This document shows, one piece after another, positions 15,021 to 64,000 of a stretch of DNA of 64,000 nucleotides (positions are counted from its first letter, which is position 1; each line of letters begins with the position of its first letter). The stretch comes from Monosiga brevicollis MX1 (Eukaryota > Opisthokonta > Choanoflagellata > Craspedida > Salpingoecidae), in the NCBI RefSeq assembly GCF_000002865.3, contig NW_001865042.1:192162-256161 (forward strand), read 5' to 3'. The notes under the pieces were generated by a model. That model was not told the origin of the DNA. It saw nothing but the letters and a program-made list of their open reading frames with translations, and ran no database searches. The translations under genes and the position numbers were made by a program.

Positions 15021-17393
15021 CTACGCAAATGGCAGAGTGGGCTCCGAGTCCATGATATTAGAATCCTGAGTCGACGCATTGAGAGGCAAGCATGGTAAAG
15101 GCAAATTGCGTCAGAACGAGTCCGGGTGAAAACTCGTTCAATAAGGGACACCCAGGGCCAAGACACTCACACTGAGTTGGCGAAATGTATTGATCTCTTC
15201 GATGGCTTGACTGAACCTAGGCACAGCAAAAACAAAATAAAATCAGAACGCAATTCAATATCAAGAAAGTGGACGCATGGCCGGGCATAAAGCCTGGAAC
15301 TATGGCTTTGAATATTGCAACGTACTGGGCCAGAGTGTTGAAGAGAGCCACGACCTCGTTGCGGGACAGGACAAGGGTTGCCGAATCGTCCGCGAAGAGA
15401 ATTCGCATGGCAGCAGCCAACCCGTGCACTTTCAATTTGCCCCACAAGCGGCAGGTTGAGCACTCGACACAATCCATGATCAGTGAGATGTTCTGAAACT
15501 TGGTTTGGAACTCTTGCTAAAAACAGGGCAACACTTTTGTCAGCGAGCACACTTTATCGCAGACGGTTGTCTGGTGCCAAAATGGCGATGGCGCACCTTC
15601 AATTCTAGAGATTCTGGGCCATTGAACATAAGGGATTCGTCGAATGTACTGGGACACGTCCTGTGATTGGTCAAAGGCCGCGAGAAATAGCGAATAAGAA
15701 CTTGGGCGTAGCTGTTACACCAAGCATCAGAAGTGCTGGAGGCGAGAACAGCAGTGTGCAACATGTACCGCGGGGCCGAGTCAATGAGCTCTTTCACAAT
15801 GGCCGCCACCTCCTCGTCTTGCTCGCTGTTGTGGGTATAAAAGCGCTCAGCTTCCCAGAGGGAGGACGCCTTGGTGATGGCGCGCACCACCAGCAGGTAA
15901 TTGAAATAAATGTTCTTCAACCAGTTGGGACCTGGGGCGTTTGGACAAGGGATGATCAAAGCATTGAGCGTCACACTGCACAACTCAATATCCCACATCC
16001 AGACTCGGACGACATCATTGTTGCAAGGTACCATCGATCGCCGACACGCGCACCTTCACCCCATGTCTTCGCGGGATGAAAAAAGCGCTCAAAGAGCGTC
16101 ACATTTGGCCCCCAAGACTCTTGGCCCAAAATAGACTCGCGTGGATAGTGTGCAGCAACATGCATGTTGATAGCAGCATGCAGCCCAGAAACGATGCGGT
16201 AGAAGACCCGTTTTTCCATGCACATCCCTGCTACCACCTTGGAAGTCAAAAATTTGGCCGAGGCATCGTCGGGTCTGTCGAAGAGATGGGGATTGTCCAA
16301 ATGCGAATACAAGCTGTGAGTGGATGCTTGGAGGAGACACGACACTCAAGTAACCAGCATTGGCAACAGCACGCACTGAAAGCAATTTTCACCGTAGATG
16401 GCCTTCCAAATCTGGGCCGGGGATCGGCCCGAATAGCCAGTGAAACGCTCGGGATTATCCACCAAATTGACGTAGTGTAGGGTGGCGCTGTTTTCATCTA
16501 TAACAGAGCAACATGACATCCCATCAGAGAGCAGGGGGCACGATTTGGCTCGAGGCACGAGGCTTTTGCTGAAGTAGGGCACTCGTTTGCACAGACCGTC
16601 TTGGAAGCAATAGCTATCCGTGTGCACATGCCAACCCGCAACTTGCTCTGCCTGGTCCGCACTAAGCATGTGATTAAAGCCAGAAGGTGAGGGGTAAGAA
16701 GGGGCCAACAAGGCAGCGGTCAGTGCAGGCCAAAGTCATGCGTGTACGCACACCGCGTACACCCCAGCAAACGATGGTACACTCGGGCACCGGGTAGGGT
16801 AGAGGCGGAGGATTAGATGAGCACAAACCTGACAGTGTCACGAAGTTGGCCCAGCTCGGTCATGTCGCCCATAACACACTCAAAGGCAGATGGGTCCTGA
16901 TCCAAAGCCCGCAAGCGCTCCGGTACTTCATTCTAGGCGATGAAACAAACAGAGCAAGCAGAAAAGGGGGCTCAGCATTGAACACAAGGCGATGGTTGTG
17001 CAGTGGCTTTCCGCGGCTGGGGATGACTTCATCTGCCCACAGAGATGGGGACGTGTCCCTCGAATCCAACCCCACCTCATCGCACGGCTCAACAGAGCAG
17101 CGATTGGAGCCACATTCAGCAAGCTCCTGGCGCCAAAACTTGCAGGGGCGATCCATGTTGACACGATAATACTTGAAAAAGTCACTTTCCGCGAGCCGGG
17201 TGACCAACGGAGCCACGTGCTCATTCAGACGGTTCACATCCTCAATGGAGCAGCAGCAATCATCAATCACCCCAGAGAGTTGGCAAAAGCACTGCTCCTC
17301 ATCGGCACAAGATGCACCGGGCACGCACAAAGCCAGCACCAACGCCAGCACCAGAAGCAGCCCGCCCGTCCTGGCCCTCAGGTGGACCAGCAT
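15021..17393 (-). CDS. ERO1: ERO1-type endoplasmic reticulum thiol oxidase
   Basis: FAD-dependent oxidase that recharges protein disulfide isomerase in the ER lumen. Exons 17076-17393, 16829-16932, 16597-16661, 16377-16497, 16060-16313, 15769-15931, 15597-15660, 15326-15516, 15171-15216 and 15021-15065 keep frame and give about 456 residues, close to human ERO1A (468). A clear signal peptide ([18 protein letters not shown]) is followed by [30 protein letters not shown], a CX4C shuttle pair (CGSNRC), [10 protein letters not shown], the FAD region [19 protein letters not shown], and the CXXCXXC active site (CVECSTC). The end of exon 1 is uncertain: a second possible donor lies 45 bp downstream in frame. 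The last 15-residue exon is inferred from phase and acceptor only. Confidence 0.95.
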
Positions 17394-29485: not shown

Positions 29486-32400
29486 ATGGCTTTCCTTGTC
29501 ACAGCCTGGCGCACTGTAGTGGCACTCGTTACACTGCTCTGTGCCACCGCCCACGCGGACCTGGTCGACGTTCGCGTCGTCTCCGATACCGGCTCGACTT
29601 TTACCTTTGAAAACGCCTTTACGGTGCTTGACGATGGTAACATCACGGCCGTCAATCCGCCATTTGGCCAGGCAGGAACCCGCGTGACGATACAGGGCCA
29701 CAAGTTTCTGGGTGGAGGCACTTCCATTGACCACGCCTCCCTTGGTGGCGTTGAAGCCTCCGTCATCTTTGGCAACGATACATTGGTCATTGTTGAAGCT
29801 CTGCGCAACGAAAGTTTTGACGGAACAGGCGCGATCGTTCTCACAGCCAATACCGGAGCACGTACTGTCGGTCTTGACCAGTTTGCTTACCGCCGTGAAG
29901 GCAGCATTGACACAATCGAGCCTGCTCAAGGCCAACATGGTACGCTCAATTCCGTTTCACCTCTTTGTCCTCAAACGGTCCACGATCCGCCATGACGCTC
30001 ACACATTCAACCCCTCGGCCCTGCATCTCTCGCCTTTTCTTGCTTTGATCACACAGGCACTTATGTGACCATTCGCGGATCCAGCTTGCTCGGGCATGGT
30101 ACTGAGCTGACCACGGTCAACCTGGGCGGTGTCCCGGCCGAGATCGTCTCAGCATCAGACTCAGAAGTGCTTGTTCGTGCTCAAACAGCTCCGACCTCGG
30201 TCAACTTCACGCTGGTCGAACTCATTGCCGACACGCACGCCCGTGTGGCCAAGGCCGAGGGCTTTCGCTATTTGCCCGAGGGGTTCATTGCATCCATCAC
30301 ACCATACAGCGGCCAATGGGGCACCTTTGTAACGCTGCGTGGTGTCTCGCTTTTGGGTCACGGTGCTGCCCTGCATGCCGTACGCTTTGGCCCCATTCAT
30401 GCCATTCCTGTCAATGTGTCCAATGAGGAGATTGTTGTGCGCGCGAGCCCTCCAACTCACCTCGGTTCCAATCTGGCATTGGGGGGCTTCCCTGAAGCCG
30501 TGGTTATCGAAGCCGACACTGGCGCTCTGGTGGCCAACCTGTCCAACGCTTCCTTCACCTACGGTCCGCCAAGCAACATCTCTAGTCTCTCCGTCATGGA
30601 GGGTCAGCTTGGTACCCGTCTCCAGGTTCAGGGCGAGCGCCTCTTTGGTCGCGGCAGCACCATTGTCAGCGTGCGATTGGGAGACACGCCGGCCGAGATT
30701 GTCAATGCCTCTTCAACGAGCATCCATCTCCGTGCCGCAGCTGGTCCACTCAACGGATCGCCCAACCTCAACGTCACGGTGGAGTCTGACACGGGCGCAC
30801 TTGCGCTACTCCGCACCGTGTGGTCCTATCTCCCTCAGTCTCGCGTCGTGACAAATTCGCCGACGCAGGGCCAGCACAAGACACGGGTCTTCATCAATGG
30901 GCAATATCTCTTTGGCGGTGGCTCACGCATTGCTGCCGTTCATTTGGCTGGCGTTCCCGCCACCGTGGTTGTTCAACTCGACAGCCTTGTCGTAGTGGAA
31001 GCTGGCTTTACAACACAAGTGGGCTTGGGTGATGTGGTGATTGAAGCTGACACTGGCGCTCAAACAGTCATCCCAAATGGGTGGCGCTACGTTGAGCCCA
31101 GCAACATCTCAGTGGTTACCCCCACCTCAGGTCGCGAAGGCACTCGAGTGGTCATCCATGGAGAGCATCTTCTCAACGGCGGCGACTACATCGAGAGCGT
31201 TACCGTAGCTGGCTTTCCCACAACTTTGCTCAATGCGTCCGATTCTGAAGTGCACGTCGTGCTTCGTGCCGGTTCACAAGGTCCCGGTGACGTCATCCTG
31301 CGTGCCAATACCGGGGCCGAGGCCATTGCCGTCGATGGCTTTGCCTACACCCACCCAGGTCTCATTACAGGAGTCGCACCCTCCGTCGGTGTGATGGGCA
31401 CTCGTGTCACGCTTAGCGGTCGAGATCTGCTGGGCGGTGGTGCAAGTCTCGCCGCCGTCACGCTGGCGGGCGTGCCCGTGGCTAACGTGCGCTTTGCCAA
31501 CGAATCACTCGTGATTCTGACAGCCAGTGGTCATGCAGTCGCAACCGCCCCTGGCATTGTCGAGCTGGTGGCCTCGTCCGGTGCCACACACACCACGTAC
31601 AACGCCTTCCGCTACGCCTCCCCGCCTGTCGTCACCGCTTTCGAGCCTTCCCAGGGGTTTCGCGGCACCATCATCACTGTCACCGGAAGCAATCTCTTGG
31701 CCAGTGGTGCGGCCATCCAGTCCGCCACGGTTCCGGGGGCAACCAATCTGACCGTGATTTCGGCCAGCTCTAACCGCCTCGAATTGCGCGTCCCCCCCGA
31801 GCACGACGTGTCTGCTGCCGCGGGTCCCATTGCCGTTGTGGCTGACACCTTTGGCGCCTATGCTTCAGAGTTCAACTTCACCTTCCTACCACCGATGGCC
31901 ATCACTCAGGTGACGCCCACCGCGGGTAAAGTTCGCGACATTGTGGTTATCCAGGGCGAGCGTTTGCTCGGCGGCGGTAACGTGTCCCTCGTCGAGGTGG
32001 CCGGCCGCCCTGTGCTTGTTTTGAACGCGTCGGACGATGCCATTACTGTACAGCTGACACTTAATGAGCCACAGACAGGTGACGTTGTGGTGCATTCCAC
32101 CACTGGCGCGCTAACGTCGGCCTCAGATGCCTTCACATATGCCGCCGTCAACAAAGCTCCCGTGCTGGTCATTGCCAACGCCAGCACTCCTGAAGACACA
32201 CCACTGGCGTTGCTGAATCTTTCAGTGTCCGATGCCGACCTGGCCGATTCAGCTGGGCGCCTCTCGCTTACGCTCAACGTGGACGCTGGCCAGTTTGTGT
32301 TTGACGCCAACGCTGTTGGACCCATGCTACAACTCAACGGAACTGTTCCCGAGCTCACTGCGTGGCTCACTGATCTCATCTTTGTGCCCGCACCGAACAT

Positions 32401-35400
32401 GTTCGGTCCCGTGCATCTTGTTATTGCTGCCAACGATAATGGTCACACGGGCAGCCCCGGCCCTCGTGAGACCATGGCCGCGGCTGTGATCCAGGTCACA
32501 CCTGTGAATGATCCGCCAATGCTGCCCAACACTGTGATCCAGCTACCAGCCGTGGCGGAGGACACGGCCGCCAACGACATTGCTGGTATATTCGTCAGCC
32601 AGCTCGTGGCTTTGGCGACGGATGTGGACTCCTCGCCCCTGGGCGTGGGGTTGACAGGTCAGACCGGGCAAACCGGCGGCCTGTGGCAGTATCAGCTGGA
32701 CGCTTCAAATTGGACCGCCCTGGGCAATCTGTCTGACAGCTCGGCCTTGCTCTTGCCTGGCCGCGCGCTGATGCGCTTTGTGCCTGGGCCCAACTTCAAC
32801 GGCGAGGTTGAGCTTGCCTTTCGCGCCTGGGATGGCTCTGCTTACGCAGAGTTGGCGCGGACCTCCATCGAGTTTTCGCCGAGTGGCTCTGTCAGTGCCA
32901 ATGTCACCAGGGCACGGTTGGTGGTTGAGAGCGTCAACGACGTGCCAGTCGTCACGTCTGCAGTGACGCAAGGTACTTTTGGGGGTACTTTCCCCGTTGT
33001 GTTCTTGGAAGGCGGTGGCGCCACTCAGGTGTTGCCGCCCGACTTGCTGATCGAGGATGCCGACCATGCTGCCCTGGCCTCGGCGCAAATTATTCTCTCT
33101 GGGGCAAGGGATGGCAATGATGAACTTGTTACACTCGATGCCGTTGCCCTTGGCATCAGAGGTCTACAGGTTATTTCTGATTTGAATGGCTCGCAGCTCA
33201 CTGTCACCGTGCGACCTCGCACCGGTGTCGCGGTGAGCATCTCCTCTCTAACAGAGGCATTGCTGACAGCCCAATACCGCAATCAAGCCGATGAGCCCAC
33301 GCTGGGCGCTCGCCTGCTGCAGCTCGTTGTGTTTGACGGCTTGGATTGGAGTCAGCCACTTTATTCCGAGGTGACCATCACACCCATCAATGACCACGCC
33401 CCCGTGCTTGCCTTGTCTCCAACCGCACCACGCGTTGCGGTTGTCGAGGATACGGGACCGCTGGCCATATTTGATTCTGCCTCCACTGGTGTCTCTATCA
33501 ACGTTTCGGATGCCGACCACACGGGTTTCCTGCTCCAGGCCGCCGCCGTCGAAGTGCGCAGCACTTCGTCTACTGCGCTCGATGAAGTGGTCCTGCTCGT
33601 CAATGCGACGGGCACAAATCTCAGCTATTCTTATGATGCCGGTAATCACACCCTGCGCGTGACAGGTGCTGCCTATCCCGAAGTCTATGCCCAGGTATTG
33701 CGTTCGCTCACCTACAACGATGGCGCTTCCGAGCCCGTGGATGTGGCCCGATCTCTCCACATTCAGGTCTGGGATGAGAGTTATGCCTCCAATAGCGTTG
33801 TAATTGCCGTCGACGTGACCCTCATCAATGACCAAGCCCCCGAAGTCTACCTCGGCCCCGGTGGCGTTGTCAACTTTTCCACCACCTTTCAAGAATCGGG
33901 CACGGCTGTGCCACTCGTAGCGCTCGATGCTGCGGTGGTTGATCATGACTCGGGCTCGTTCTCTCTCACCGGGCTCCATGCGACCATCCTCAACGGGGTT
34001 GATGGCGTCCTGGAGCAGCTTGCCGCCACAGGCTCGGCAAACATCTCGGTCAGCTATGATGCGGCAACTTACGTGCTGACTGCCTCTGGCCATGCGACCG
34101 CGGCCGAATATACCTCAGTTCTTCGCAGTCTGAGCTACACCAACCTTGCAGACCGACCTTCTGATGCCAGCGGGCGTTTGATTCAGGTGCAGGCTTTTGA
34201 TGAAGCCTTTACAAGCAGTCCAGCTGCCGTGAACCTCAGCATCATCTTCATCAATGACCCACCACAGATTTTCGTCGGACCTCCTCCAAGTGTTGAGATC
34301 GAGGGCCTGTACGTGGAGGGCGACAATGGCACCCTTATTTTTCCAAACGGTTCCTTGACCATCACGGATGAAGATCATCTGATGCTTACCAACGCGACTC
34401 TACGCCTCATCAACGCGCCCGACTTTGAGGCGGAGACGATTGAGCTTGATGTTCTAGACACGGGCTTGATGTACGTTTACGAAGCCCTTGTCAATCACAA
34501 TCGTGGGCCGGGCGAAGGTCGCGTTGCCGCACACGCCACATTGCGCGTACCCGGTGTTGCGCCGAGTTCTTGGCGCAGCAGTGCTGAGGCCCAAGCTACC
34601 TGGGCTGCGGTTTGGAGCGAGCTTTTGGGAGCTCGGTTGGGTGTGACATCAGCATCGATCGAGGTCACCAACGCCACAGCAACGGCGGATGTCAATTCCA
34701 GCGCGAGTGAACCCATTACTGCGTTGTCATTCGTGCTGGTTGTCCCCGATAATTTTACGTCTCAGCTTGCGGCTGACGTGTCAACAATCGTGGCTTCGGG
34801 CGATTTGCTCACCCTTTTGCAAAGCCGCAGTGGTGCATATTACTACGCCACAAACGTGTCGTTTGCCGCAGAGCCTGTGATCCAAGAGTTTGATGTTGTG
34901 GAATTTTTTGGGGTGGCTCACCTTACAGGTAGTGCTTCGCTCGAGGACTATCGACGGGTTTTACAGACAGCACGTTATCGCAACGCTGTTGCGCGACCCG
35001 GGTTACCGGACGGCCGTCCTCGTCAGTTTGAATTGCGCGTGTCCGACGGTGCGCTGGAGAGCAATGCGGCACACTCGATGCTGCTGTTCCAGCGCGTAAA
35101 TGATGGCCCCTTCTTCCGGCTACGGGCGCCCAATGGTCAGCCCTTTACGGCAACCTTCCGCGAGGAATCTAGTGGCGTACATGTTGTCTTGGGCAACGCC
35201 TCGGTCCTGGACGCGGACAATACAACCTTGGTCGCACTGACCATAACGCTTTTGGGGGCACCTGATGGTGCTGCCGAGGGCCTCCGAGTGAACGCGTCTG
35301 GCCTCGACATCACGTCTAGCGGTGCGGGCCACGTACTCAACTTGACTGGTCGAGCGTCGTTGGCGCAATACACCGAGGCATTGCGGCGCATCGAGTATTT

Positions 35401-37517
35401 CAACGAGGCCGACGAGCCGGTTGACGTAGTGCGGCAATTGCATTATATTGCCGACGATGCCTTGACTCGGGGCCTCGCTGCCAGTAGCTTTGTGCGTATT
35501 CAGTTTGTCAACGATCCGCCCCGTTTGAGCCTGGGCACCGACCCTTCCGGCAATTACTCAACATCTTATGAGGAACAAGCCCTCAACGTCGCTGTGGCGG
35601 GTCCTGGCGCGCTGATTGAAGATGACGATGATGCGCGTCTGTCGCGAGCCATTGTCACACTGCTGAATCCACTCGATGGCTCGGACGAGTTTCTCTATGC
35701 GGCGGGCACGGCTCTGTCGGGTCTATCCATCTCGGGCAACAGGAGCACCGAGGTACTTTTGTCTGGCAACGGCACCCTTGCCGACTGGACCCTAGCTTTG
35801 CAGTCTGTATTTTACGTTCATTCGTCCAACAATCCCACAGTGACTGCATCACGCATCGTGAAGGTGGTGATTTGTGATGCTTCAACTATTGCCGAGGCCG
35901 CGGCTCCCTCGGAACCGCGTTTCGCTCACTTGGACATTCAGCCCATCAACGACGCCCCCTTTGTCAGGAGTCCATTGGCTGAGAGCAGCGGCGCCACCAT
36001 CTTCTTTGAGGGTCGCGGGCCTGTGTTCATCGCCGAGGACTTGTCGGTTCATGATGATGACAGCTTGATGCTCACCGAGGCCACAGCTGTACTGCTCAAT
36101 CCAGTTGACCGCGATGTGGTACAGCCAGAGTTGCTGGCCGTGAACACCACCGGCAGCGGTCTCGCTTTCTCATACAGCGTCAACGGTCTTCTGCGCCTCA
36201 GCGGGCCTGGCAGCACGGCAACCTACACGTCCGTTCTGTCCACGCTGACTTATGAAAATACGGACGCCAATCCCTCTCATGTCCAGCGCCTGGTCGAGGT
36301 CCAGGTCTCGGACGGCGCGTTGAACTCGATGGCCCTTCAACTGCGCGTCAACATTTCAAGTCGCAACGATGCGCCAGTCATCGATCTCAATGGCGCAGAC
36401 GCGGTGGGTCTGGATCATGCTACAGTGCATCTGCAGGGTAGCTCGGGCGTGCCTCTGATGAATGCGGCGACCACTCTCTTGTACGATCCAGAGGAGGATT
36501 TGTTGGAGCGCGTGGATGTGCAAATCGATCCGCTTCTGGATCAACCAGCAGAGTGGCTAGTCATGACGTACGAGGAACCCTCGGTTGGAATCATGCTGGC
36601 TGACCGCATGGCTGTTAACACTCCCATCACGTCAAGCTGCGGCGTGCAAGGTCACTGCGTCAAGGCCACTCTCTCCCTCCCGGCCGGCGCCGGCGAAACG
36701 GTCGCTGATGTGGCCGTACACATGGTTATTGAGCACCCCAACTTGAATGACCTGGTGGTGTATCTGGTTCACGAGGCCCGGCGGATTACCCTGCTGTCCA
36801 ACGTCATTGATCCGTCGCAGACAGGGGTCAATCGTTTCTGCTCTGCCGCCAACTATCAAAGCGTTGTCTTGACCGACGATGCTGCAACGGCCATTCAGAC
36901 CACATGTGCCAACAATCTTCGCGGTGCTTTCCTACCGCTCAACAATTTGGCGCAATATGCTGGGCTTTTGGCTGGCGGAGATTGGACTCTGGAGGTGTAC
37001 GACACCAACACGGGATTCTCGGTTGGAACGTTCGTGTCGTGGGGGATTGTCGTTGCCACGGGCTCTCGCACGACGTATACCCAGCAAGCTACGCCATTTT
37101 CTGCTAGCGAAAGCCCCATGGAATTGATCTTCAACGTGGTCGAAACGGGTCTGGTTGAGGACTTGGACATTTTTGTCCAGCTTAGCACCGATGACGCACA
37201 TGGCATGGTTCTCGAATTGGAGAGTCCCAGAGGGGTGATTGTGCCGCTGTGGGCTGCTGTTGACAACTGTGGCCTCGACGCGACAGCTCTTTATTTCGAT
37301 AGTGCTGGCGTGCATGACAATGCGTCGGTCTGTTTGCATGGCGCTAGAGCCTTGCTGGACGTTGGGTTTGGAGCAGCGCTGGTGAGTGAGCAGGTGGCAA
37401 CTGGTGCTTGGACCCTTCGGTTGACGACTGCGGCTGCCGGTACCCTGGATCTGGCGCAACTCAGATTCAAACTACGTACGTATTCTTTGCCATCGCTGTC
37501 GGCCTCTGACGTGGGGG

Positions 37518-37568
<51 letters not shown>

Positions 37569-40500
37569 CCCCTCGTTTGGTTTGTGTGCTGCCCCGTTCT
37601 TGCTTGCCGGCTCAACTCCCATTTCTTGCTCTGTCCTATTGGCCTCTACTGGCTTCTTCTTTTTGGCGCCTGTTTTGAGTGCCATGATGTGGTACAGCCT
37701 CACAAATGGATGGATTGCGGCCCTGGTTCAAATGTAGGTCCCAACATTGAGTCTAGTTTCTCGCCCGCGACGGGCCTGCTGTCTTTGACGGGGCGTGACA
37801 CGGCTGCAGCCTACCTTCTGCTGCTTTCTTCCTTGGTATATGTAAACAATCAAACAGTACCAACCGATGTCACACGCAACATCAGCATCGTGGCCACCGA
37901 TGCCAGCAACAGCTCTGCACCAGCCATTGCCTTTGTTAGCATGCACAATGCTCCCCTGCTTTTCCTAAATGGCACTGGCTTGGGTGGTCAGCGCGATCGT
38001 TTTTTGACGTATTCGGAGGACGTCGGCCCTGCTTCTTTGCTATCCTCAAATAGCTTGTATGGCTACGCTGACGATCTCATCCAGAGCGCCACGGTGCGCA
38101 TCGAGAATGCCTTTGACGCCACCAATGAATCTGTGGCTCTCGATGCAACCACTACTGGGGGCGCCGTGTCCGTCACCGGGAGCGGATCGCACAGCATGCT
38201 TGCGTCAGGCGTGGCACCCATCACGACCTACCTGGCCCTGCTAGCCTCATTGAAATATGATAACGTTGCGCAGAACATGACAGGCACTGAGCGTCTCATC
38301 TCAGTCGAACTGAACGATGCTGCGGGTCTCCCCTCCATTCAAGCTTTTATTCGTGTGAGCATGGTGCCCGTCAACGACCGACCCCACATCTTGGATCCGC
38401 GGTTGCTTGGGGCAGGGCCTCGGGTTTCCTGGACCGAGAATGCAAACGCCACCGCGCTAGCTCCTCAGGCAGCGATTTTTGATGAGGATGACACTGCGTT
38501 TTCGCGCATTGTTGTCAGCATTATGCCCCCGCTGGATGGGTCGGCCGAGGTGCTCACGTTTCTAAACGGAGCTGGTATCGTGGCCAGCAACACCTCACTC
38601 GTTGGAGATGCACTTGTTTATGACTACGACGTCACAGGCATGGCCACCACTCACGAGTCAGCCTCGGAGCTGATTCAGGCCTTGGCTTACCATAACGCGG
38701 CAGATGAGCCAACTGCAGGCTCGCGGAACGTTACGATCGTGGTCTACGACGCCCAGGGATTGGCAAGCGCACCGCTTCACATTTCAATCGCTGTTTCACT
38801 CGTCAACGACAATGCGCCTGTGCTCGCACTGACGCAATCGGTCGTTGAGTTGGTGGAGGATTCGGGTGTTGTAAGTGTGCTCGCAGGCTCACTGGCAGCC
38901 ACGGATGCGGACGTGCACGATCTTTTCCCTATGACTGCAGCTACAGCTGTTCTGAGTAGCCCGGATGCCGCATTTGAGCGTCTTGTTGTCAACGCGTCTG
39001 CAGGAGCCCCTTCACTCGCTCTGATGTACGACAACAATACACACACACTCTCAATTCAGGGCCAAGCTGAGCTTGAGGTATACGAAGCCCTGCTCAACAC
39101 GCTCACGCTAGTTTCGATGATTGAGGAGCCGTCGCCTACAAACCGTACCGTGGCTATTACCCTCACTGATCAGGCTCACGTCAGCAACCTAGTTCAGGTG
39201 GTTGTTACCGTCCGCCTGATCAATGATCAAGCCCCCAAGCTAGATCTCAATCCCGTGTCAAATTCCAGCGATGGCTCGGTCACTTTTATTGAGGAGGGCA
39301 CTGCTGTTGATGTACTGCCTGGTGGCACACGTCTCACTGATGCGGACAGCGGTGAGCCTGGGCAGTATCCACGCCTGCTACATCGTGTCGTGTGTCAGCT
39401 TGCTGCTCTTGATGGTGCGTCGGAAGGGCTGATCGCCGGTAACCACACCGGCAGTGTGGCCATAGCGGCTGGCAACAATTCTCACGAGATTATCTGGGAG
39501 GGACCAGCCATGCCGGCGCAGTTTGAGCCAGCCTTGTCGACCATGGCGTACTTCAATTATGCTGATGAGCCCGCCTATCCCCGGATGCGCACCATCAATT
39601 GTACCGCTTTCGATGCCTCTCTGGCCTCGGAGCCTGCTTTTGTGACTGTAACCATACAATCGGTCAACGACGCCCCACAGCTGGACTTGGATCCCCTAAA
39701 TACAGGCATTCACAAGTACAGCCAATACGCTGAGGGCGGGGGTCCTATGCTACTCCTTGTTGATGGGGTCACGCTTGTCGATGACGACGACCTCACCTTG
39801 ACATCGGCGTGGGTGCGCCTGCTCAACGCCCCCGATGGATCGGAGGAGATGATTTGGATAAATGAGACTGCGACTGTCAGCGTGCACCCCTATCATCACG
39901 GGCTCGTGTTATCTGGCAATGCAAGCTTGACGGAGTATGCCAATGCGCTGGGGACTCTCGGATACACTCACACCAACGCGCATCCCGGAAATCCTAGTGC
40001 GGGGGTACGTGAAGTACACGTGGCTGTCTCTGATGGTCGCCTCAACGCCTCTACAGCTGTCATCTTTCTCGACTTTGATACGGTCAATGACCCCCCTATT
40101 GTGGATCTCAGCCCGGGGGATGAGACATTTGACTTTGCCACCTCATTCATCGAGGAAGGTAGCCCAATTGCCATTGCAGCGGCCGATGCGACCGTCATGG
40201 ACATTGACAGCCCGCTGTTGCAACGTATCGAGTTTGTCATCACCAACGGCGCTGATGGGAATCTGGAGGGCTTTGACACCGATAACGCGACGCTGCTGTC
40301 TGAATTGGAGGCGCTCAACTTTACCATAGACTATAATGAGGCCTCCTACACGCTCACCCTGCAAGGTGAAGCAACGCCGGTCAAGTTTTCCAGCATTTTG
40401 CGCTCAGTGCGCTACTTTAATCTTGCAGACGAACCCAACTTTTCGACTCGTGCCGTGGAAATCCAAGTCACTGATGTGCTTAATGCGACATCCGTCTCAC

Positions 40501-52500: not shown

Positions 52501-55500
52501 CTGAGACCACAGTACTGATCAGCCCCGTGAACGATCCTCCGCGTCTTGTGCTCCACGCGGCCGAGTCGGCTGCAAATCGCTCAACTGTGTTTGTTGAGGG
52601 CACAACGGGCGCCGCCCTTGTCGATGCGAGCGGCGCACATCTCGAAGATGACGATGACTCCTTGTTCTTTGTCGTGCATGCTGAAATTATGAACGCAGCC
52701 GATGGCAGCGCTGAGCGATTGGTCTGGGCTGGCGACGACGAAGCCACCATGGCTGGTTCAAATCGATCTAGCGTGCTCCAGGTTGCCGTGAGTGGCGGTA
52801 ATGCACTCAACCAAAGCCAAGCTCTGGCTCTGTTGCACCAAATGCGCTACATCAATCTAGATCCGGACATGACGGTTGGGTGGACGCGCACAGTCGCAGT
52901 TTGGGTGCAGGATGCGGGTGCAACGGGGCCTGCTCAACGTAGCAATGCATGCTACGTGGCCATTGATGTTGTGCCCGTTAATAACCCTCCCACGGTCTCC
53001 ACTCACGCAAGCATCAGCTTCACTGAGGGCTCTGCGCCCGTTCCTGTGGATCCCATGCTCACCCTTGAGGACCTGGACGGCGACACGATCACCGTTGCCG
53101 AAGCGCGCATCAGTGACGTGCATGATTTCGGAGACGTTGCGCCGTATGAGGTCCTGTCCGTGGATACTGGGTTGACGCAGGGCGCTGGGTTGGTCGTCGA
53201 CTTTGATCCGATAGGAGAGCTACGCATCACGGGCGCCGCATCTGTTGCAACATACCAGACCGTGCTGCGCACGCTGGCTTACGTGAATCTAGACCAAGAC
53301 CCCAGCAGCGCTGCGCGGACAATCGATATTTACGTAGCCGACTTGTCGGACAACGGCCCAGCTGCAGTTGTGCAGCTCACAGTCTTGCCCGTCAATGACG
53401 CACCTGTCGTTGCGGTCACCGGCAGTGCTGTTTACGTTGAAGGGGCCCATGCTTCGACCATCTTTGACACTGTGGTTGTAACCGACCCAGAGCGTGATCA
53501 CTTGGTCAACGCCACGGTGCAGTTGATACCCGCACCAGATGCTGCGCTTGAGACACTGTCCGTGGAGATTGAGTCTCCCATTCCAGCCCTTTCCATCGGG
53601 ACTCGGCACCTTGGTCTCAACTCCTCCATTACAACGGCATGCGAGCATGAGACCGCGTACCTGTGTAGCCAAGATACCATCACCCTCTCTTCTACTCCCG
53701 GTGACGCCTCTGGTGCCGCTTTGACCCGTCTGACCATATCCGTCGATCTTTCTCACGAGCATGTGGGTGATCTGCAAGTGTATCTCTATCATGCTGGTAC
53801 CACGGCATTGCTGATGGACCGTCTGGCCAGCTCCAACCGCGCGCGAGGATCCTGTGAACTGGGCAATCTGACTCTTGTATTCTCCGATGATGCCAGCACA
53901 CCTGTCGTTGAAGCTTGTGCTCTTGGCAACCAAGGGCTGGTGCGCCCAGCCACTTCGTTGCTCGAAAGCTTTGCTGGTCTTCCCCGCGACGGTGAATGGA
54001 CCATCATCGTGGTGGACACGTATGCAATGTTCCGCTTTGGTCAGCTCAAGAGCTGGGCTATTGTCACCGAAACTGACGCGCGCCAAACGGCCCTGGCTGA
54101 GGTGTCAAGTGTCGTGGCGGTGGGAGAGACACTCAGCGCGCCCGTTGAGGTTCCGTATACGGGCCGCATCGTCGACCTTGACGTGGTTCTCTACGGCCAG
54201 GTCAGCGCTACCTTTGAATCCGCCACCATTGAGCTGATTAGTCCAGCCGGAACAACCGTTCGTCTTCTTCGCCAGGCCGGCGTGCGTTGTGCCCTCGAGG
54301 GCGCATCGTTCCTCGTGTTTGATGACCAGGCCGACAGTCCTGTCACCATTAATGCTGTGTGCACCAACCCCGAGGGCATGACTTTCCAAGCTGGAGACCG
54401 ACTGCGTGCCTTCAACAACTCGTGGATGTTCGGAACCTGGACGTTGCGAGTATCCCAGGTCGTGGGCGGCCCCCTCACGCTACACGCTGTGGCTCTCAAA
54501 GCCGCAACACGGCCCAACATTGCATCCTTCTACAACACCGACACGGCCACATTGACATTGCGCGGCGCTGACAGCAGCGCTGCATACGCGATGGTGCTCA
54601 GCACTGTTCGGTATCTCAACACCGCTACACGACCCAATGGCATCAACCGCACCGTTGTCGTCGCTGTGGCCGATGCAAATGTCGGTCCTCCGTCCAGCGT
54701 CCCCCTGCTGGTGCACATCAGCCCTGCTGTGAATTCACATCCTCCCAACACCAACGGCTCAGTCGACTATGTCGAGCAAGCGGGCGCCATCGCCCTGATG
54801 CCCAGCGCTGCGGTTGCGTTTGACAACTTGTTCTCGTTGACAAATCTCTCCGCCTCTCTGGTCGATCCTGAAAGTGATGACCGACTAGTAATTGCAGACG
54901 AAGCGCTGTCTTTGGCCCTGCTTTTGAATCTCGACGTTGTGCAAACAAACCACGCGGTAGCGGTGTCGGGTGAGGCCACGGTGGCCGAGTACGTCTCGCT
55001 CTTGCAAGCGCTTTCCTTTGATCACACAGGACGGGACCCGGCCCAATCAGCACGCGTTGTAGCCGTGTGGCTGGGTGACTCGAGCCCCCGACGCGGCCCC
55101 ACCAGTTTTGTCACTATTGCCATGACAACTATCAACGATGCCCCTTACTTCAGCGCCGCGCGAGAGCTCTCCACTTTTGTCGAACAAGGCCCACCTGTCG
55201 AACCGGGCATTGGACTAAGCATACTTGATGATGACGACCGCTACTTGCAACGCCTAACTGTGAGCGGTTTGGTGCCTGACGCCACCGAGCACCTCCGGGT
55301 GAACGTGGGGGGCTTGGCGGCCACAGTGGACGAACAGCTTGTAGTGGAACCCTGTGTGCCCGGCTCAACGTTTTGCTCCGTGAGCCTGGATGTAAACCGC
55401 TTGACACTCACCGTAAGCGGCAATTTGACGACAAGTGAGTTTACGGGGTTGCTGCGTGCCGTGCAATACACGCATGATGCCGACGAGCCCACGCCAGGCG

Positions 55501-58500
55501 TACGCGCCTTTGACGTCGTGGCCTTTGACGGTCAGATCAACGGAACTGGTTTGGAGCTTTTGGTCAACGTAACGCTGATCAATGAGCACGCTCCTGTCCT
55601 TGATGAGGGAGCTTGTCAATGCACTGCTTTGCAATGCGACGTGCACCCTGGCTTCCTGCCGACACGGCCCTGGTGCTATGTGGACGCACTACGCTGTGCC
55701 GACACGTTTGGTTTTGAGAACAATCAACACTACTGCACGCCTCGGATCTTCAATGAGAGCGGCGCGCCACTCGTGCTGGTCCCCGATGTGATCCTCACCG
55801 ATGCTGATGAGCATCCCAGTTTCATGATGCACGAGGCCACGATTACGCTCTCCCGATCAACCGAGGCAATGCTCGCTAATGATAACGAAGTTCTTTTGTT
55901 TGTGAACCTTCTGCCGCCCCAATTATCTTTCAATTGGAATGCTAGTAGTGCGCAGTTGCGTCTTTCTGGTCCCGGATCAGTAGCAGAGTATCAGCAAGTC
56001 CTTCGCACCGTGGCCTACCTGAATTCCGAGGATGAGCCGACCCCCGGTCCGCGACAGGTTTCAGTCCAGGTCTACGACGGTGCAGCTTGGTCCAACGGGC
56101 TGACTGTAGAGCTCAACATATCTCTCATCAACGACCAGCAACCGGAGGTTTACTTTGGCTCCAATGCCTCCTCCGTGGAGCTGGGCCCCATGATTGAGGA
56201 GGGCCCAGCAGTCAGTTTGGCCGATAGCGGTGTGCGTGTTGTTGACGCCGATTCGGGCAGCTTTCCTATTCTGGGCGCCACGCTGGTGATCACAAATTGG
56301 TTTGATGTTGAAGAAGATCTTTTCCTAGACCCCACCGTCGCGACTGCTGCTGGGCTTGACTTGATGTACAACGCTTCAATGAAGCGAATGGAGCTGGTGG
56401 GGCCCGCCGCGCCTGCTACTTACACCGAAGTCTTGGCGCATGTTGCTTACCGCAATTTTGCAAACGAGCCATCCTCTCCCGATCACACACGCCATATCGA
56501 GGTCGTGGTCCAGGACGCAGACTATCAAAGCCGCTCGGCTGTGGCCTTTGTTCCTATTGTGATGATGAACGACGCACCACGCGTTTTGCTGCACAACGGA
56601 ACACAACACGCTATTGCTGTGACCCGCAGCTACGCCGAAGGTGATGCCGCTGCGGCCATTGTCACTTCTGAAGCGCGCATTGAAGACGACGATGATGCAC
56701 GGCTTGTCACCATGAGCATAACGCTCGATGACTTTGACGTCGGCGCTAACAGCGAGCATCTCGAGTTTGGATCAGACGTGGCCGCTGCGGCTCTGGACGC
56801 GGGCCTCAACTTGTCGTCCACGCTCAACGGCACTCGTCTCACGGCACATGGCTTGGTGGACTTGACTGTTTATCAAAACTTACTTCAGGGCTTGCAGTAT
56901 GTGAATGCGGATACGCGCAACCCATCTCGTGGTGTACGTCGCGTAGTCATTGTTGTTACGGACCCGGCGGGTAACGAAAGTGCCCCAGCGACAATCTTTG
57001 TCAAAGTTAGTCCTGTGAACGATGCGCCCTGGGTCGATCTCAACGGCGAGGTGACGGGCACAGACACTGCTGTCACGTTTCTTGAGGAGGGGCCGCCTGT
57101 GGTGCTGGCAATGCACGCCAATGTCCTCGACGTGGACAACGATACTTTGAGTGAGTTGACAGTCCAACTTAATGTCAGACCTGACGGAGCCCTGGAAGGC
57201 CTCTCCGTAGGCAATGCCCACGGTTTGAATGTGACAAACACGACCCTGGGGCTCATTGTGCAGGGACGAGCAAGCGTAGAGACATATGCTGCGGTCCTAC
57301 AGTCGATCATGTATTACAATCTGGCTGATGAGCCCATCTCCACGCCTCGTGTGGCACGTGTGAGCATCACAGATGGCTTGGCTACGAGCCTCGTGCGCAG
57401 TGTTACGGTTTCCATCGAAACTTTCAATGATGCGCCCATCTTGACGCAGACGGGCCCGAGCATGCTTAATTACATTGAAAACGCCGAGTCAGTAACTTTA
57501 TTCCCAGGCGTGTTCGTCTCGGACACGGACAGTGCCGTTCTTACGGAGCTGCGAGTGTGGCTAAGCAATGTGCAAAACGATGGTAGTGAATCCGTCTTTT
57601 CCGACCCCTCCGCAGCTACGCGCTACACAGAGAGTGCAGTCAGCAATGCGACAGCTCGTGTGTATCTTCGAGGCACGGCCTTGGCCAATTGGCAAGCCTT
57701 TTTGGCTCAGTTGCTGTACACCAACTTTGCAGATGAGCCGGTGGCCTCGGAACTCCGAGCCGCTCACCTTTCCGTCGTCGACTCGGGCAATGCTGTGAGT
57801 AACGTCGTGACTGTTTGGATCAATGTCACAGCGCGCAATGACCCGCCTATGCTCTCAGCTGGTACCGTGGTTGACATGTCAACTCTTCTCGAGGACGATA
57901 CGGCTGCAGCTGGCGACACTATTGCGCAGCTATTCATGGGCGTGACCAGTGATCCGGACGCCAATGCCCAGCTGGGTGCTGCCATAGTAGCCGCGGACAA
58001 TGCACATGGCGTTTGGCAGGTATCCTTCAACACCAGTGGGTGGATGTCGCTGCCGGAGCTTGTCGCCGGTGATGCGTTTCTTCTCGGTGCTGCCGCGCGT
58101 GTCCGCTTTGTACCGCACCAAGACTTCACGGGATGGGCCAGCTTTTCGGCACACGCTTGGGATCGTACGGATGAGCGCCACGTTGGTTCCTTGGCGCAAA
58201 CGTCGGACCTGTTGGCACCCACGGGATCTTTGAGCAGCATGACGGCAGAGATCCGCGTGCATGTCTTGCCGGTCAATGACGCACCCGTTCTTCATCCGAC
58301 CGCTCTGCTACCCTTGCCCGTGGTAGAGGAGGACGTGCCGCTGGTGGCCAATTTGGGTGCAGCAGTTGGCGAGTTGCTCGGTCCTGCTGCAGTGGGCGAC
58401 GTCGATGCCAACGCCACCCACGGCCTTGTTGTAACGTCTTTGTCTGGTGCTGCGCAGAGTACCGGTGAGTGGCAGTGGCAGCGAGCCCGTGACGCGGGTC

Positions 58501-61500
58501 AAAACTGGTCAAGCGTTGTCGTTGGTTTGTACCTGAGCGAAAGCGCCCGCTTGCGTTTCCAACCTAGCCAAAACTTTTACGGCAATGTCACGCTGGGCGT
58601 GCGGGCTTGGGATCAAACCATGGGCGTGGAGGGGGCAGTTGTCAACACGTCAGATCTTTCAATTGGCGGCACAGCTGCGCACTCCCTTGCATGGGGTGAA
58701 GTGGTACAATCAGTCCTTCCCGTCAACGACGCCCCTGTCTTGCGGTCCCCTCAGCCGTGGAATCTGGCCGCGATCTTGGAGGACGTGCACACCGATGCAA
58801 ACCTGGGCTTTGTAGTTGGTGAGATGGCCGCTGCACGTTTTGCGGATGCTGACAACCTTGACGTGCTGGGCGCGGTTGCGTTGCACGTCGACAACCGTCT
58901 AGGGAATTGGCAAGTGCAAAGCACAGCCAACGGCTTGTGGACCGCGCTGTCAGCTGGCGACGCGTTGCGCCCCGATGCTCGTGTCCGCTTTGCACCTGCT
59001 CTCAATGCTCACGGTTCGGCGGAGCTGCAGGTGTTGGGCTGGGATCAAAGTCGCACCCCCACACTGGGTGGCTCTTGGACCGCCATGGACAGTACATCGG
59101 TCGAGAACATTAGCATTGTTGCGACTGTTTTGGCCGTGAACGATGCACCCGTCCTGCTTGACGACTTGATGCTGGACTCGATTGCGGAGGATCTTCCATC
59201 TAACGTGAATCCCGGCCGCGCCGTGCGAGAGCTCGTCGTAAGCAGTATCACGGATGTGGACGGCGACACCTTGCTGGGACTGGCCGTCGTTGGCAGTGCC
59301 TGTACCACGGGCACTTGGCAGTATCGCCTCAGCAATCAGTCTGCTTGGACGCCATTCTTCGGCAACGTCCTACCCAACGGTGCCTTCTATCCCGCCGATG
59401 CCACCCTTGAAGCAGCTACGCTATTGGGCCCCGCTGCGTGGATTCGTTTCGTGCCCCATCAAGACTTTTTCGGTGCGGCAGCGCTCCGCGTTCGCGCGTG
59501 GGACATGACAACAGGATATTCAGGTGCATACGCTGTCAACGCTTCTGAGGCGTCGTCGGCCTTTTCTGTTGCCTTGGCCAACGTCACGGTCATTGTGCAG
59601 CCGGTCAACGACCCACCCGTGCTGTCGGTTGGCGTCAGCAGCTCAACTAGCCTATCTTATGTCGAGAACGATGGGCCCTTATCTATCGCACCCCACGCCG
59701 TGCTTCGGGATGTCGATGATGCGGTCATGGAAGTCATTCACATTGTGCTCGAAGGCAATCTGGATGGCTCCGAGGAAAACCTTAAAGCGGATGCACACTC
59801 GGCGTCAGGGTTTGTCTGTACGGGTTTCGGGGGTGCATCTGACCTCTATTGCTCTGGTGCAGCCACTCTCTCGGCAGTTCAGGCTCTACTGCAAAGTGTG
59901 CAATATGAGCACCACGGCGTGGAACCCACTCCTGGCCGACGCATCGTTGTGCTCGCTGTTTCGGACGGGTCTGCGGTGGTCAATTTGACCGTGACAATTG
60001 ATGTGGCGACCATCAACGACGAGACGCCGCAAATTTGGCCATTACTGTTTGAGCACGAGCTGTCAGAAGGCTCTCCGGCCTTTGCACCCTTTGCCTCGGC
60101 CACCCTCACGGACTTGGACGACAATGCCGTCTACCAGTTGGCCAGCCTAGAGTTTGAAGTCTTTCCCCTTTGGGACTCGGCGCAAATCCAGCTCAACGGA
60201 TCCGTTGTTGTGCCATCGCGGTATGGTTTGGTCTCAGTGGACTCACCCATGACCGTCGCCTCAGCTCAAGACCTGTTACGCTCTTTGACCATCATTGATA
60301 CCAACACGCAATGGCAGCCCCGCAGCGTCAACGTGACGGCCGTGGCGTTTGACGGCTTACATCGCTCAGTGCCCGCCGTGGCTGTTATTCAGCTGCTGCC
60401 AGTCAATGATCAAGCACCCTCTGTATTTTTGGCGGGGTCCGTGCTGGAGCAGAACGCTTCTTCCAACCCGTTTGTGGAGGAAGGCGCGGCGGTCGTTCTG
60501 GTACCCGAGGCTGTCATACAGGACGAAGACACGGGTGATTTTCCAATCGTTGAGCTTGGCGTGCGCCTTCTCAACCCCGTGGATGAGAGCGAAGAAGGAC
60601 TGACGTTGGATATCGGCTTGGCGCAAGGCTTTGGCTTGGCCGTGGTTGCGGACGGACCCGTTCATTCCAATACGGGCACCGCCCATGGATGGCTCACAAC
60701 GGGACCGGCCACCCCCGCCACATACCAGGCAGTGCTGCGCACACTGCAGTACCGTCACGCAGGCGAGGAAATGTCCGAGCCCATGGAACGCCTCGTCGAA
60801 GTCTGGGTACGCGATGAGGACTGGACCAGTTCTGTGTCGGTTGTACTTGTACCACTCCAGCCCATTAACGATGCGCCGTCCATCACCTTTGCGGACCAAA
60901 ACTACGTGCGCGTACTGGCGTACGTCGAGGGTGATGGGCCCGTTGCCATTGCAGATGAAGGAACGGTCATCACCGATGCTGATAATCTGCGGTTGCAGAG
61001 CTTGTCCGTGCGTCTGGATGCCCGTCCAGACGGTGAGGCCGAATTTCTGTTCCTGGAATCCACTCTGGCGAGTGCTGTTGGGGTGGAGGTTAACAATTTG
61101 GGGAGTGAGGTGATACTTTCAGGCCCCGCCACGCTGGCCGAATATGCAAGCCTCTTGCGTCAGGTCACGTATGAGCACGGGGATGCACATCCAGGCAATC
61201 CCAACTGGTCCGCCCGCCGCATTGAAATTACGGCCATGGATGAAAATGGTGGCATGAGTTTGGAGGCCGTTGTGCATGTGAGCTTTGAGGCGGTGAATGA
61301 CGCGCCCATTCTTGACTTGAACGGCCCTCAACGCGGCACCAACTTTTCGGTTGACTTTGTCGAGGAAGGGCCTTCCGTGGCGATTGTGGCAGCAGATTCC
61401 ATGACCTTGGTCGATGTGGACAGCGAGCGTCTGACCTGGGTAGAAATTGAGCTCATGAACATGCCCGATGGTGAAGCCATGGAGGCCGTTTACGTGGATG

Positions 61501-64000
61501 CACCCCGCTCCCTGACTGTGCAGCGACATGGCGCGCTCCTGCGTGTCGAAGGCAACACGTTTACCTCAGTGTATCAAGACGTTCTTCGTACCGCCCGTTA
61601 CGAAAATCTGGCTGGCGAGCCATCTGAGGAGACGCGCGTCATTGAGGTCCGAGCAAGCGATGGCGTGGCCGTGAGCGTACCTGCGCAATCCATGGTGCGT
61701 ATTGTTTTGGTCAACGACGCCCCCGTCTTGACCAATGGAATTGATACCCTGACCGTAGCAGAGAATAGTGAGATGTTGTTGTTCAGCACTCTAGTGATCA
61801 GCGACCCCGATGACCTCTTCCTTCGCCGTGCCACCGTCGTCGTGACTAATCCGCTGGACGGGCTACTGGAGAGCGTGCAGCTAGCCCCGGACGTTTCTCT
61901 TCCTTCGGGATTGTCCTTGACGGTGCAACACGAACACTTGCTCGTGCTTGAGGCCACGACCGCCAACATCACTGTTGACACCTGGCACCAGGTGCTTTCT
62001 CAGGTGCGATTCGTTACTGACAGTGACAAACCCCATCCCGAGGCGCGCGACATCACGTTGCAGGTCGAGGATATCGCCAGTTCCTCCAGCAACCTGTTGC
62101 GCGTAGATGTCTCGGTCCAACCCGTCAACGATGCCCCTCAGCCACGCGCCTCCTACCCATACGCACATGGTGTCATAAGTGTCCCGGAAGACGGCCTCCG
62201 CGTTTTGCCTATCCTTGCTCATCTGATTGATGCAGACGACGTACTGACGGCCGAGCATGTTTCCATCACAGCACCACCCTCGAACGGTCAAGCTTCCGTG
62301 CTTCCCGATGGGTCCATTCAGTACACCCCTCATCCCGACTACTTTGGGTCGGATGCCCTGGCTTTTGCAGTCTGCGCCCGCGACGTTTGCTTTGATGATT
62401 CCATTGCTCTGAACGTAACAGCCATCAACGACCCCGTAACCGCGAGTCCTGTCCAGCTCGTGTGCACCGAGGATGACCATGTTGCCGTTGATCTTCAAAT
62501 GCACATTTTTGATGTTGAAGACAGTCCGTTGGCCCGTGTGCACGTTTGGGTAGACTCGCCTCAGCACGGACGTGTCTACTGGGCCGCAACCAATCTCGGT
62601 GAGGGAGAAGATGACGACGACGAGGATGTGGCCAGTGGTAGCGGCAGCGGTGACGTTTCCATGCTGGACAATGACGATGAAGGCAGTGGAGACAGCCTCT
62701 TCCCGGCGTCCACTTCGGTCCCGTCGGATGATCAGTATGATCTGACGCTAGTCTATGTGCCCAGCCCCAACTATGCGGGAACGGATGGCTTCAATTACAC
62801 GGTCTGTGATACGGACGGCGCCTGTGCCACGGCAACCATCACAGTGGTGGTAGTAGGCGTGAATGACGTGCCCGTTAGTACGAATGCCACCATTACGGTG
62901 GCTGAGGACGATGAGGGGGCGTTGAATGTCACTGGCCTCGTTTGGGACGTAGAAGAGCCAGCTTCAGCTCTGACTGCCAGCATCGTACAAAACCCGACCC
63001 ATGGCACGGCCACCCTTTCTGGGCCCTGGCTAATCTATCTGCCAGCGGTCAACTTCTTTGGGACCGATGTCATCGTGCTTGAGTTTTGTGATGCTCAAAT
63101 GGCATGCTCGCGTGCACACGTGCTTGCAGCCGTGACCCCGGTCAACGACGCACCTGTCGCTCGCAATGCTTCCCTGTGGGTGCGTGAGGACGAGCAGCTA
63201 CAGATCAATCTACTTCAATATGTGGAGGACGTCGAAGACCAGTTGACAGGGGCGGCCGTGACCGTCGTTGATGGTCCCGCCCACGGCGCACTTGCATACA
63301 CGGCAGCAACCGGCACAGCCATGTACACCCCCGAAGCCAACTACCATGGCCCGGATATGGTTGTGTTTGAGGTTTGTGACTCGATGTCAGCATGCCGCCT
63401 CGGGCACTTAGCCATTAATGTCACGAGTGTCAACGACGTGCCTCAAGTCAATGATACCTCCGTCCAGATTATTGAAGATGGAGCTGCCACTGTGGCTCTG
63501 GCACCCCTGGTTTGGGATCGCGAGTCAGGACTCGCGGCCATCTCATTCGGCGTTGCACAACCGCTGGCACACGGTCAGGCCACCATCAACATTGAAAACC
63601 AATCTGTTTACCTCATGCCCACAGCAGACTTTGCTGGCACCGATGAGCTCATCTTTGAGGCGTGCGACTCGCATGGCGGGTGTGCCGTTGGTCGGATCAC
63701 GATTGAAGTACTCCCAGTCAACGACGCGCCCGTGGCGCTCAACGCCAGTGTCAGCACCAACGAGGATGAACCTTTCCTCTTCCTCACTCGCGACTACGTT
63801 GCGGACGTGGACAACACGGACGCTGAGCTAATCGTGTCGATTCATACACGTATGTTGGCCCACGGTCAGCTGGAGGTGGATCAGCGCACGGGCATCATCA
63901 CGTACACCCCCACGCCTAATTTCTGGGGTGAGCAGTGGTTTACCTATCAGGTCTGTGATCCTGCTGGCCTGTGCGACTCTGCTTGGGTCAATGTCACGGT
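29486..64000 (+). CDS. Giant secreted TIG/cadherin-like/P-domain multirepeat protein (3' end beyond window)
   Basis: Not recognised as a named gene. Exon 1 is 29486-29939, exon 2 is 30057-37475 and exon 3 is 37738 to beyond 64000, phases 1 and 1. At least 11,378 residues are visible and no stop appears before the window end. I spot-checked the frame near 43.1, 45.3, 48.8, 56.0 and 63.9 kb. A signal peptide (VVALVTLLCATAHA) opens the protein. Then come nine IPT/TIG repeats, about eleven cadherin-like repeats, a P-domain pair, a long mixed repeat array, a second P-domain pair, an acidic Ser-Gly linker and Big_9-like repeats. Most units end in a VND-P motif and carry acidic clusters (DADN, DVDN, DDDD) fit for calcium. 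N-glycosylation sequons are frequent. A huge extracellular or surface protein for adhesion or matrix is inferred. No membrane segment is visible yet. Confidence 0.9.
29637..32150 (+). other. Array of nine IPT/TIG repeats
   Basis: Nine units of about 90 residues each begin with I-x-x-(V/I)-x-P-x-x-G-x-x-G-T-x-V-T-(I/V)-x-G and contain a (L/F)LGGG or LLGHG turn and a (G/A)GVPA segment. Examples are ITAVNPPFGQAGTRVTIQG (29637), IDTIEPAQGQHG (29910), IASITPYSGQWGTFVTLRG (30290) and ITGVAPSVGVMGTRVTLSG (31360). The first intron splits the second unit. IPT/TIG folds are immunoglobulin-like and occur in plexins, Met and fibrocystin-type proteins. Confidence 0.85.
32150..36600 (+). other. First cadherin-like repeat array
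   Basis: About eleven units of roughly 125-150 residues. A typical unit has F-x-E-(E/G)-x-G near the start, then a D-(A/V/D)-D turn, 'LNPLDG-x-E' or similar, 'G-x-A-x-x-x-Y-x-x-x-L-x-x-L-x-Y', 'EP', a 'V-x-V-x-D' strand and the terminal (I/V)ND-P. The second unit (about 32550-32990) is of a different kind with W-Y and FRAWDG. I place these as cadherin-like from the VND-P ends and the acidic turns; the match to classical cadherins is weak. Confidence 0.7.
36600..37475 (+). other. First pair of P-domain-like modules
   Basis: Two consecutive modules (about 36625-37060 and 37080-37475) resemble the proprotein convertase P (Homo B) domain. Each has a beta strand, then H-x-x-x-x-D-L-x-V-x-L, a Leu-Leu segment, a disulfide-like Cys pair, F-x-x-L/AG-x-W-x-L-x-V-x-D, and G-x-(F/L)-x-x-W. 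They interrupt a cadherin-like unit whose first half ends near 36590 and whose second half resumes at about 37745. Intron 2 lies at the end of the second module. Confidence 0.7.
37476..37737 (+). other. Intron 2 of giant gene with poly-T tract
   Basis: A GTACGT donor at 37476 and a TGTAG acceptor at 37733-37737. About 42 T lie at 37527-37568. The frame of exon 2 runs on into the intron for about 200 bp before a stop. Confidence 0.85.
41350..42727 (+). repeat. Duplicated 1.38-kb block, copy A
   Basis: Matches 45748-47125 at a constant offset of 4398 bp (1466 codons). I saw no difference in the stretches I compared. It covers about three cadherin-like units. Confidence 0.95.
45748..47125 (+). 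repeat. Duplicated 1.38-kb block, copy B
   Basis: Second copy of the block at 41350-42727. The flanks diverge sharply at both ends, although the 65 bp around 41205-41270 and 45600-45665 are also nearly identical. Confidence 0.95.
53660..54515 (+). other. Second pair of P-domain-like modules
   Basis: Two modules (about 53670-54070 and 54110-54515) show the same features as the first pair: SHEHVGDLQVYLYH, a Cys-containing middle, DGEWTIIVVDTYAMFRFGQL then W, followed by ATIELISPAGTTVRLL and FGTWTLRVSQV. A cadherin-like unit begins before them (about 53400-53640) and finishes after them (about 54520-54740), so the pair again lies inside one unit. Confidence 0.75.
54515..62100 (+). other. Third repeat array
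   Basis: About 19 units. Most are the cadherin-like type. Four consecutive W-Y / RAWDQT-type units occupy about 57850-59640. A Cys-rich insertion at about 55605-55740 (around eight Cys in 45 residues) interrupts one unit. Confidence 0.7.
62105..64000 (+). other. Big_9 / tandem-95-like repeats (run past window end)
   Basis: Units of about 95-100 residues with HG-x-(A/L) after a DVE/VEDVED segment, Y-x-P-x-x-(N/D)-(F/Y)-x-G-x-D, F-x-x-C-D-x-x-x-x-C and VND(A/V)P. This is the pattern of the bacterial Ig-like Big_9 / VCBS-associated repeats as I remember them. The paired Cys in the D-x-x-x-x-C strand is regular here. Confidence 0.65.
62599..62703 (+). other. Acidic Ser-Gly linker inside a Big_9-like unit
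   Basis: A low-complexity insertion reads EGEDDDDEDV, then ASGSGSGD, then DNDDEGSGDS. Ser-Gly dipeptides flanked by Asp/Glu are the usual context for glycosaminoglycan attachment in animals. No other part of the visible giant protein looks like this. Confidence 0.7.

Follow-up and report, generated by a model that had tools for sequence, protein, structure and literature searches.

Positions 192,162 to 256,161 of contig NW_001865042.1 of the choanoflagellate Monosiga brevicollis MX1 (RefSeq assembly GCF_000002865.3) raise the question of whether a single gene here encodes a protein of more than 11,000 residues and, if so, what kind of protein it is. This stretch of 64,000 nucleotides is called the window; it corresponds to C53:192162-256161 in a 39.5-Mb genome of 57 contigs, which are numbered in the style C53, C33, and C55. 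Coordinates are those of the window, and values above 64000 denote the continuation of exon 3 as read from the downstream sequence of C53. We found one three-exon gene whose product carries TIG units, cadherin-like units of two kinds (A and B), Big_9-like units (C), and inserted P domains. Our reading of the whole, to which we assign a probability of about 60%, is that the gene encodes an N-glycosylated type I giant that would form a calcium-stiffened rod, be cleaved and coupled to endocytosis, and serve as a surface tether or coat fiber.

One three-exon gene

The gene model and an internal duplication comprise the following features (aa, amino acid positions).

29486..29939, +, exon 1: start codon, predicted signal peptide (approximately aa 1 to 24), and TIG unit 1
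29940..30056, +, intron 1: GT...AG, 117 bases
30057..37475, +, exon 2: remaining TIG array, first A and B units, and first nested P-domain pair
37476..37737, +, intron 2: GT...AG, 262 bases, with homology continuous over the join
37738..64000, +, exon 3, part within the window: runs on to a TAA codon at 66309-66311
41352..42731, +, internal duplication, copy 1: aa 3830 to 4289, approximately three A units
45750..47129, +, internal duplication, copy 2: aa 5296 to 5755

As a preliminary description of this sequence had proposed, the three exons join in phase across GT...AG introns and stay open to the end of the window, with no stop in 11,378 codons. The frame ends 2.3 kb beyond the window, at the TAA codon, so that the full coding sequence amounts to 36,447 bases (including the stop) and the protein to 12,148 residues (1.28 MDa), which ranks among the larger single polypeptides. 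The ATG is preceded, at a distance of four codons, by an in-frame stop. Both introns are required, because the unspliced frame of exon 1 reaches a stop at 29993-29995, inside intron 1, and that of exon 2 hits one directly after 37675. The open frame of exon 3 spans 9,628 codons (chance probability, approximately 1e-150 at the local base composition), and the other five frames of the same stretch contain 201 to 482 stops each.

At the level of aligned sequence, the exon joins are backed by protein homology spanning both of them. The intron 1 join (codon 152) falls within TIG unit 2 (aa 139 to 225), which aligns with the other eight TIG units, and an alignment of two regions containing P-domain pairs and A units (aa 2255 to 2671 versus aa 7844 to 8262; 29% identity; E, 2e-40) extends through aa 2625, the site of the intron 2 join. 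The proposal of one giant three-exon gene with the domains named for it is supported. The same homology counts against the alternative that two or more adjacent genes, or an assembly error, have been read as one. That alternative draws on a 460-residue block that is present twice, identical in protein and differing at 2 of 1,380 bases, and on the presence of 8,704 N bases within 40 kb of downstream sequence; because of the near-identical block and the N-rich sequence, local assembly faults are possible. However, the joined 36.4 kb contain neither a stop nor a frame break, and a paralog on contig C33 holds the membrane half in one frame (C33:122130-140897; 6,256 codons), and we regard fused genes or a misassembled frame as highly improbable. 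The block itself may represent a recent duplication, conversion, or an assembly fault.

A chain of some 80 bead-like domains

We scanned 12 pieces of the protein with Pfam (matches to an E value of 0.001 in one scan and to 0.1 in another) and scored the A, B, C, and TIG units with models of our own, the TIG model being built from the nine units themselves. The ectodomain contains 9 TIG, approximately 48 A, 13 B, and approximately 7 C units together with two inserted P-domain pairs, i.e., some 80 bead-like domains in total.

29636..32143, +, nine TIG units: aa 51 to 847, with intron 1 within; 85 to 106 bits each by our own model
32534..62138, +, A/B array: aa 978 to 10758; 50 matches of the A model, read as approximately 48 units (approximately 131 aa), and 13 B units (approximately 145 aa)
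36704..37051, +, first P domain of nested pair 1: aa 2368 to 2483; Pfam PF01483, 28.4 bits versus a cutoff of 21
37157..37429, +, probable second P domain of nested pair 1: approximately aa 2519 to 2609; below the Pfam cutoff (E, 0.088 and 0.17)
53727..54515, +, nested P-domain pair 2: aa 7955 to 8217, inserted in an A unit
62166..64000, +, Big_9/tandem-95-like C units: aa 10768 onward; approximately seven, the last one past the window end

The domain content claimed in the preliminary description was borne out. Its nine TIG repeats were recovered as nine by our own model and as six stretches by Pfam PF01833 (five in exon 2 and one in exon 1), and its dozens of cadherin-like units correspond to the A and B units of our models. 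In its nested P-domain pairs, the first member of each pair exceeds the Pfam cutoff, and both second members fall below it. The second P domain of pair 2 (E, 0.0026) has a predicted P-domain fold, and that of pair 1 is homologous to it. Of the two features of proprotein convertases, a P domain and a subtilisin-type protease domain, the first is present, and the 12 pieces gave no match to a peptidase. For the C block, NCBIfam tandem-95 (NF012211; cutoff, 90 bits) gave 240 bits; five of seven pieces matched below the cutoff, and one of the seven gave no match.

The A units may resemble cadherins in structure. A confident structure model of an A-A pair (predicted local distance difference test score, 89.8) had LI-cadherin as its best Foldseek match (E, 1e-7). 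Cadherins or protocadherins accounted for 41 of the 50 matches listed, and the modeled pair appears to resemble tandem cadherins in fold class. The Pfam extracellular cadherin (EC) repeat, PF00028, gave no match in the 12 pieces, even to an E value of 0.1. Eight positions (E, D, E, G, R, D, N, and D) are invariant across all 15 of the A units that were aligned, a set chosen from the approximately 48.

Predicted membrane topology and processing

The part of exon 3 beyond the window carries three further features.

65007-65018, +, RRRR site: sequence ARRRR
65622-65705, +, predicted transmembrane helix, from hydropathy
up to 66308, +, predicted cytoplasmic tail: 200 residues

The signal peptide and the helix were called from Kyte-Doolittle hydropathy alone, with means of 2.99 for the helix, 1.95 for the signal peptide, and 1.84 for the next stretch; with the threshold set to 2.0, only the helix remains as a segment in this protein, and only its counterpart in the C33 frame. 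The ectodomain (11,918 residues) has 213 N-glycosylation sites (shuffled mean, 91; z, 13.5), and the tail has none; the C33 protein has 92 in its ectodomain (versus 50 expected) and likewise none in its tail. Since the signal peptide is accompanied by a single strong helix, on the C-terminal side and followed by a tail, and since the glycosylation sites are confined to the ectodomain, the product is predicted to be a type I single-pass membrane protein. It had previously been described as secreted, a claim that is not supported because the strong helix and the site-free tail lie beyond the window.

The protein might nevertheless become a secreted matrix or theca component if cleavage at ARRRR fully freed the ectodomain and the membrane stub were a mere carrier. 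Each of the two proteins has a single RRRR site, located 205 residues ahead of the helix here and 250 residues ahead of it in the C33 protein, which is in favor of such a release. However, the cleavage is putative, the cut chains of some receptors remain joined, and both tails bear DPF motifs (two here and five in the C33 protein, with none in either ectodomain). We therefore consider a freely released product unlikely and retain the reading of a membrane-anchored protein.

A paralog of the membrane half on contig C33

Judged by its sequence, the membrane half of the protein has a paralog in the C33 frame, which gave matches to 14 A, 8 B, and 7 C units. The two proteins also have in common a Pfam P domain (near the start of the C33 frame), a single ARRRR, one helix, and a proline-rich tail with DPF motifs. 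They differ in that the C33 frame is about half as long; among the 143 TIG matches listed for the genome, none lies on C33. When the two proteins are compared pairwise, their C-terminal ends align at 24% identity (E, 6e-17), with the aligned region preceding the helix. A stretch common to both tails, PPAxASMRxxxDPFA, is identical at 11 of 15 positions by eye. However, three results count against a link between the tails: only a 50-residue block aligns within them (E, 0.083), a genome search with the end of this gene matched C33 in the Big_9 part only, and one with the C33 end returned C33 alone.

Elsewhere in this genome, an A-unit stretch had at least 37 matches (on C53, C33, C22, C10, and C30), and P domains had three (on C56, C33, and C53). 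TIG and SH2 domains had at least 143 and at least 114 matches, respectively; SH2 domains in such numbers indicate a holozoan.

Relatives in other organisms

Protein searches with exon 2 and with 5,000 residues of exon 3 retrieved 50 proteins among 8,000 scored and 12 among 548 scored, respectively; these searches are confined to proteins between 0.55 and 1.75 times as long as the query and depend on shared words. No named M. brevicollis protein was among the matches listed in either search. A similar arrangement is that of P0002 (4,951 aa; European Nucleotide Archive [ENA]), whose units, by our own models, follow the order A6 B3 A3 B3 A3 B4 A6 C2 and which has a P-domain pair within an A unit, alignable to both pairs here; among the 62 relatives, it is the only one with PF01483 in the precomputed Pfam list. 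Unlike the protein described here, P0002 seems incomplete and has no TIG unit, and no membrane end was seen in it.

Other relatives have the A units in different surroundings. P0008, from the sponge Oopsacas minuta, is a very large Fat4-like cadherin with 22 A units, and other very large unnamed proteins resembling it have runs of A units; these proteins bear Pfam EC repeats and other domains, whereas the protein here has no EC match in the 12 pieces. Three bacterial proteins (P0010 from Hydrogenophaga, P0020 from Microcoleus, and P0036 from a Chloroflexota genome) are cadherin-like and tandem-95 proteins that all contain A units, with B units in P0010 and P0036 and a C unit in P0036; they lack TIG units by our own model and have no PF01483 among their listed Pfam domains.

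Two known protein families are similar in part. Multi-unit stretches exceed the Pfam CLSTN_C cutoff in 3 of the 12 pieces, a likeness to calsyntenins; however, CLSTN_C was matched only partly, no EC or laminin-G match occurred in the 12 pieces, and calsyntenins are about ten times smaller. Fibrocystin/PKHD1-type proteins have many TIG units and one membrane helix, as here, but no G8 or parallel beta-helix match was found in the 12 pieces, a cadherin-like array being present instead.

The preliminary description could name no matching architecture and suggested an undescribed class. This view holds for the combination of TIG with A units, which occurs in none of the 62 relatives by our own models (the length-limited searches are not a full test), but not for the remainder, as the membrane half recurs on C33, and the A/B/Big_9 order with nested P domains recurs in P0002. 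Among the literature matches listed, titles and abstract openings make no mention of the gene or of a giant TIG/cadherin-like choanoflagellate protein, although the principal papers on the genome and the cadherins of M. brevicollis (King 2008, Abedin and King 2008, Nichols 2012) may still mention it.

Proposed structure and role

We suggest that the approximately 80 beta-sandwich-like units form a chain in the fashion of cadherins, with joints that may be stiffened by calcium because acidic positions are conserved in the A units. Cadherin units are 4 to 4.5 nm long; a chain of this many units would therefore be a thin rod of roughly 0.3 μm. The distal TIG units and the nested P domains would be the likely contact sites. 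Furin-like proteases cut RRRR sequences, and such a protease probably cuts ARRRR, approximately 200 residues outside the membrane, which would give a two-chain or sheddable molecule. DPF motifs bind the AP-2 adaptor, and the short proline-rich tail may thus couple the protein to the endocytic machinery. A giant adhesion or matrix protein, as suggested earlier, is plausible; the most likely role would be that of a long surface tether or coat fiber (on the collar, flagellum, or cell coat) in adhesion or prey handling.

Instead of an adhesion receptor, the protein might be a structural fiber, many copies of which lie side by side as filaments in the vane of the flagellum or in the collar links. 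The vane filaments of S. rosetta are approximately 3.5 nm wide and begin at the flagellar membrane, their composition being unknown (PMC9671500), and links of approximately 70 nm, also of unknown composition, connect the collar microvilli of S. rosetta and M. brevicollis (PMC4012994). A long, glycosylated, membrane-anchored chain of beads would suit such filaments. However, the vane is reported to have survived proteinase K (data not shown in that study), which the authors take to favor carbohydrate or glycoprotein over protein (PMC9671500); EGTA failed to remove the collar links (PMC4012994), which fits poorly with calcium-stiffened units, and the links are shorter than the estimated rod. We regard this role as distinctly improbable. 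The broader proposal that this protein and its C33 paralog are vane or collar-link filament proteins, defining a premetazoan class of giant TIG-plus-cadherin-like membrane fibers, is very doubtful. The surface tether or coat fiber outlined above is the reading that we favor.

In that capacity, the protein is a candidate for the long surface fibers of choanoflagellates. It provides one gene to tag or remove in a close relative of animals in which the makeup of the collar links and vane is open according to the studies cited (PMC4012994, PMC9671500). Its arrays also illustrate that cadherin-like units, including some common to sponge and bacterial proteins, can escape a search for Pfam EC repeats.

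Other giant frames and neighboring genes

Two further frames were considered as family members and rejected: C55:714436-746379 (10,648 codons) has no A, B, or C match, and a C10 frame, judged at its C-terminal end, finishes in cadherin repeats, a helix, and a tyrosine-phosphatase-like region (by eye). The C55 frame (+) is a single open frame with TIG matches near its end and is possibly another giant gene. The C10 frame (C10:60643-67998, -) combines cadherin repeats, a membrane helix, and the tyrosine-phosphatase-like region, and A units match further along C10. Next downstream of the gene described here, on the same strand (68400-85202), open frames of 3,752 and 1,810 codons contain many TIG matches. 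At C54:1458399-1469333, many TIG matches occur as equal-scoring pairs with a spacing of approximately 6,978 bases, a pattern that duplication of a 7-kb stretch within a giant gene might produce. At C30:285127-288597 (+), TIG and SH2 matches lie on the same strand in one 2,002-codon frame, possibly a TIG receptor with an SH2 domain.

Lysine is very scarce in the ectodomains, at 0.34% here and 0.46% in the C33 protein; the other giant frames have 0.40% (next TIG frames), 0.35% (C10 cadherin), and 0.95% (C55 frame), and lysine amounts to 0.03 to 0.98% in six relatives from other sources. The cytoplasmic parts contain more: the two tails reach 4.0 and 4.3%, and the cytoplasmic part of the C10 protein has 1.3%.

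Elsewhere in the window, the stretch at 8516-9211 (-) gave a strong match (E, 8e-26) to the transducer domain of topoisomerase VI B, and its neighbors match ERO1 (16863-17393, -) and cysteinyl-tRNA synthetase (21902-22396, +).
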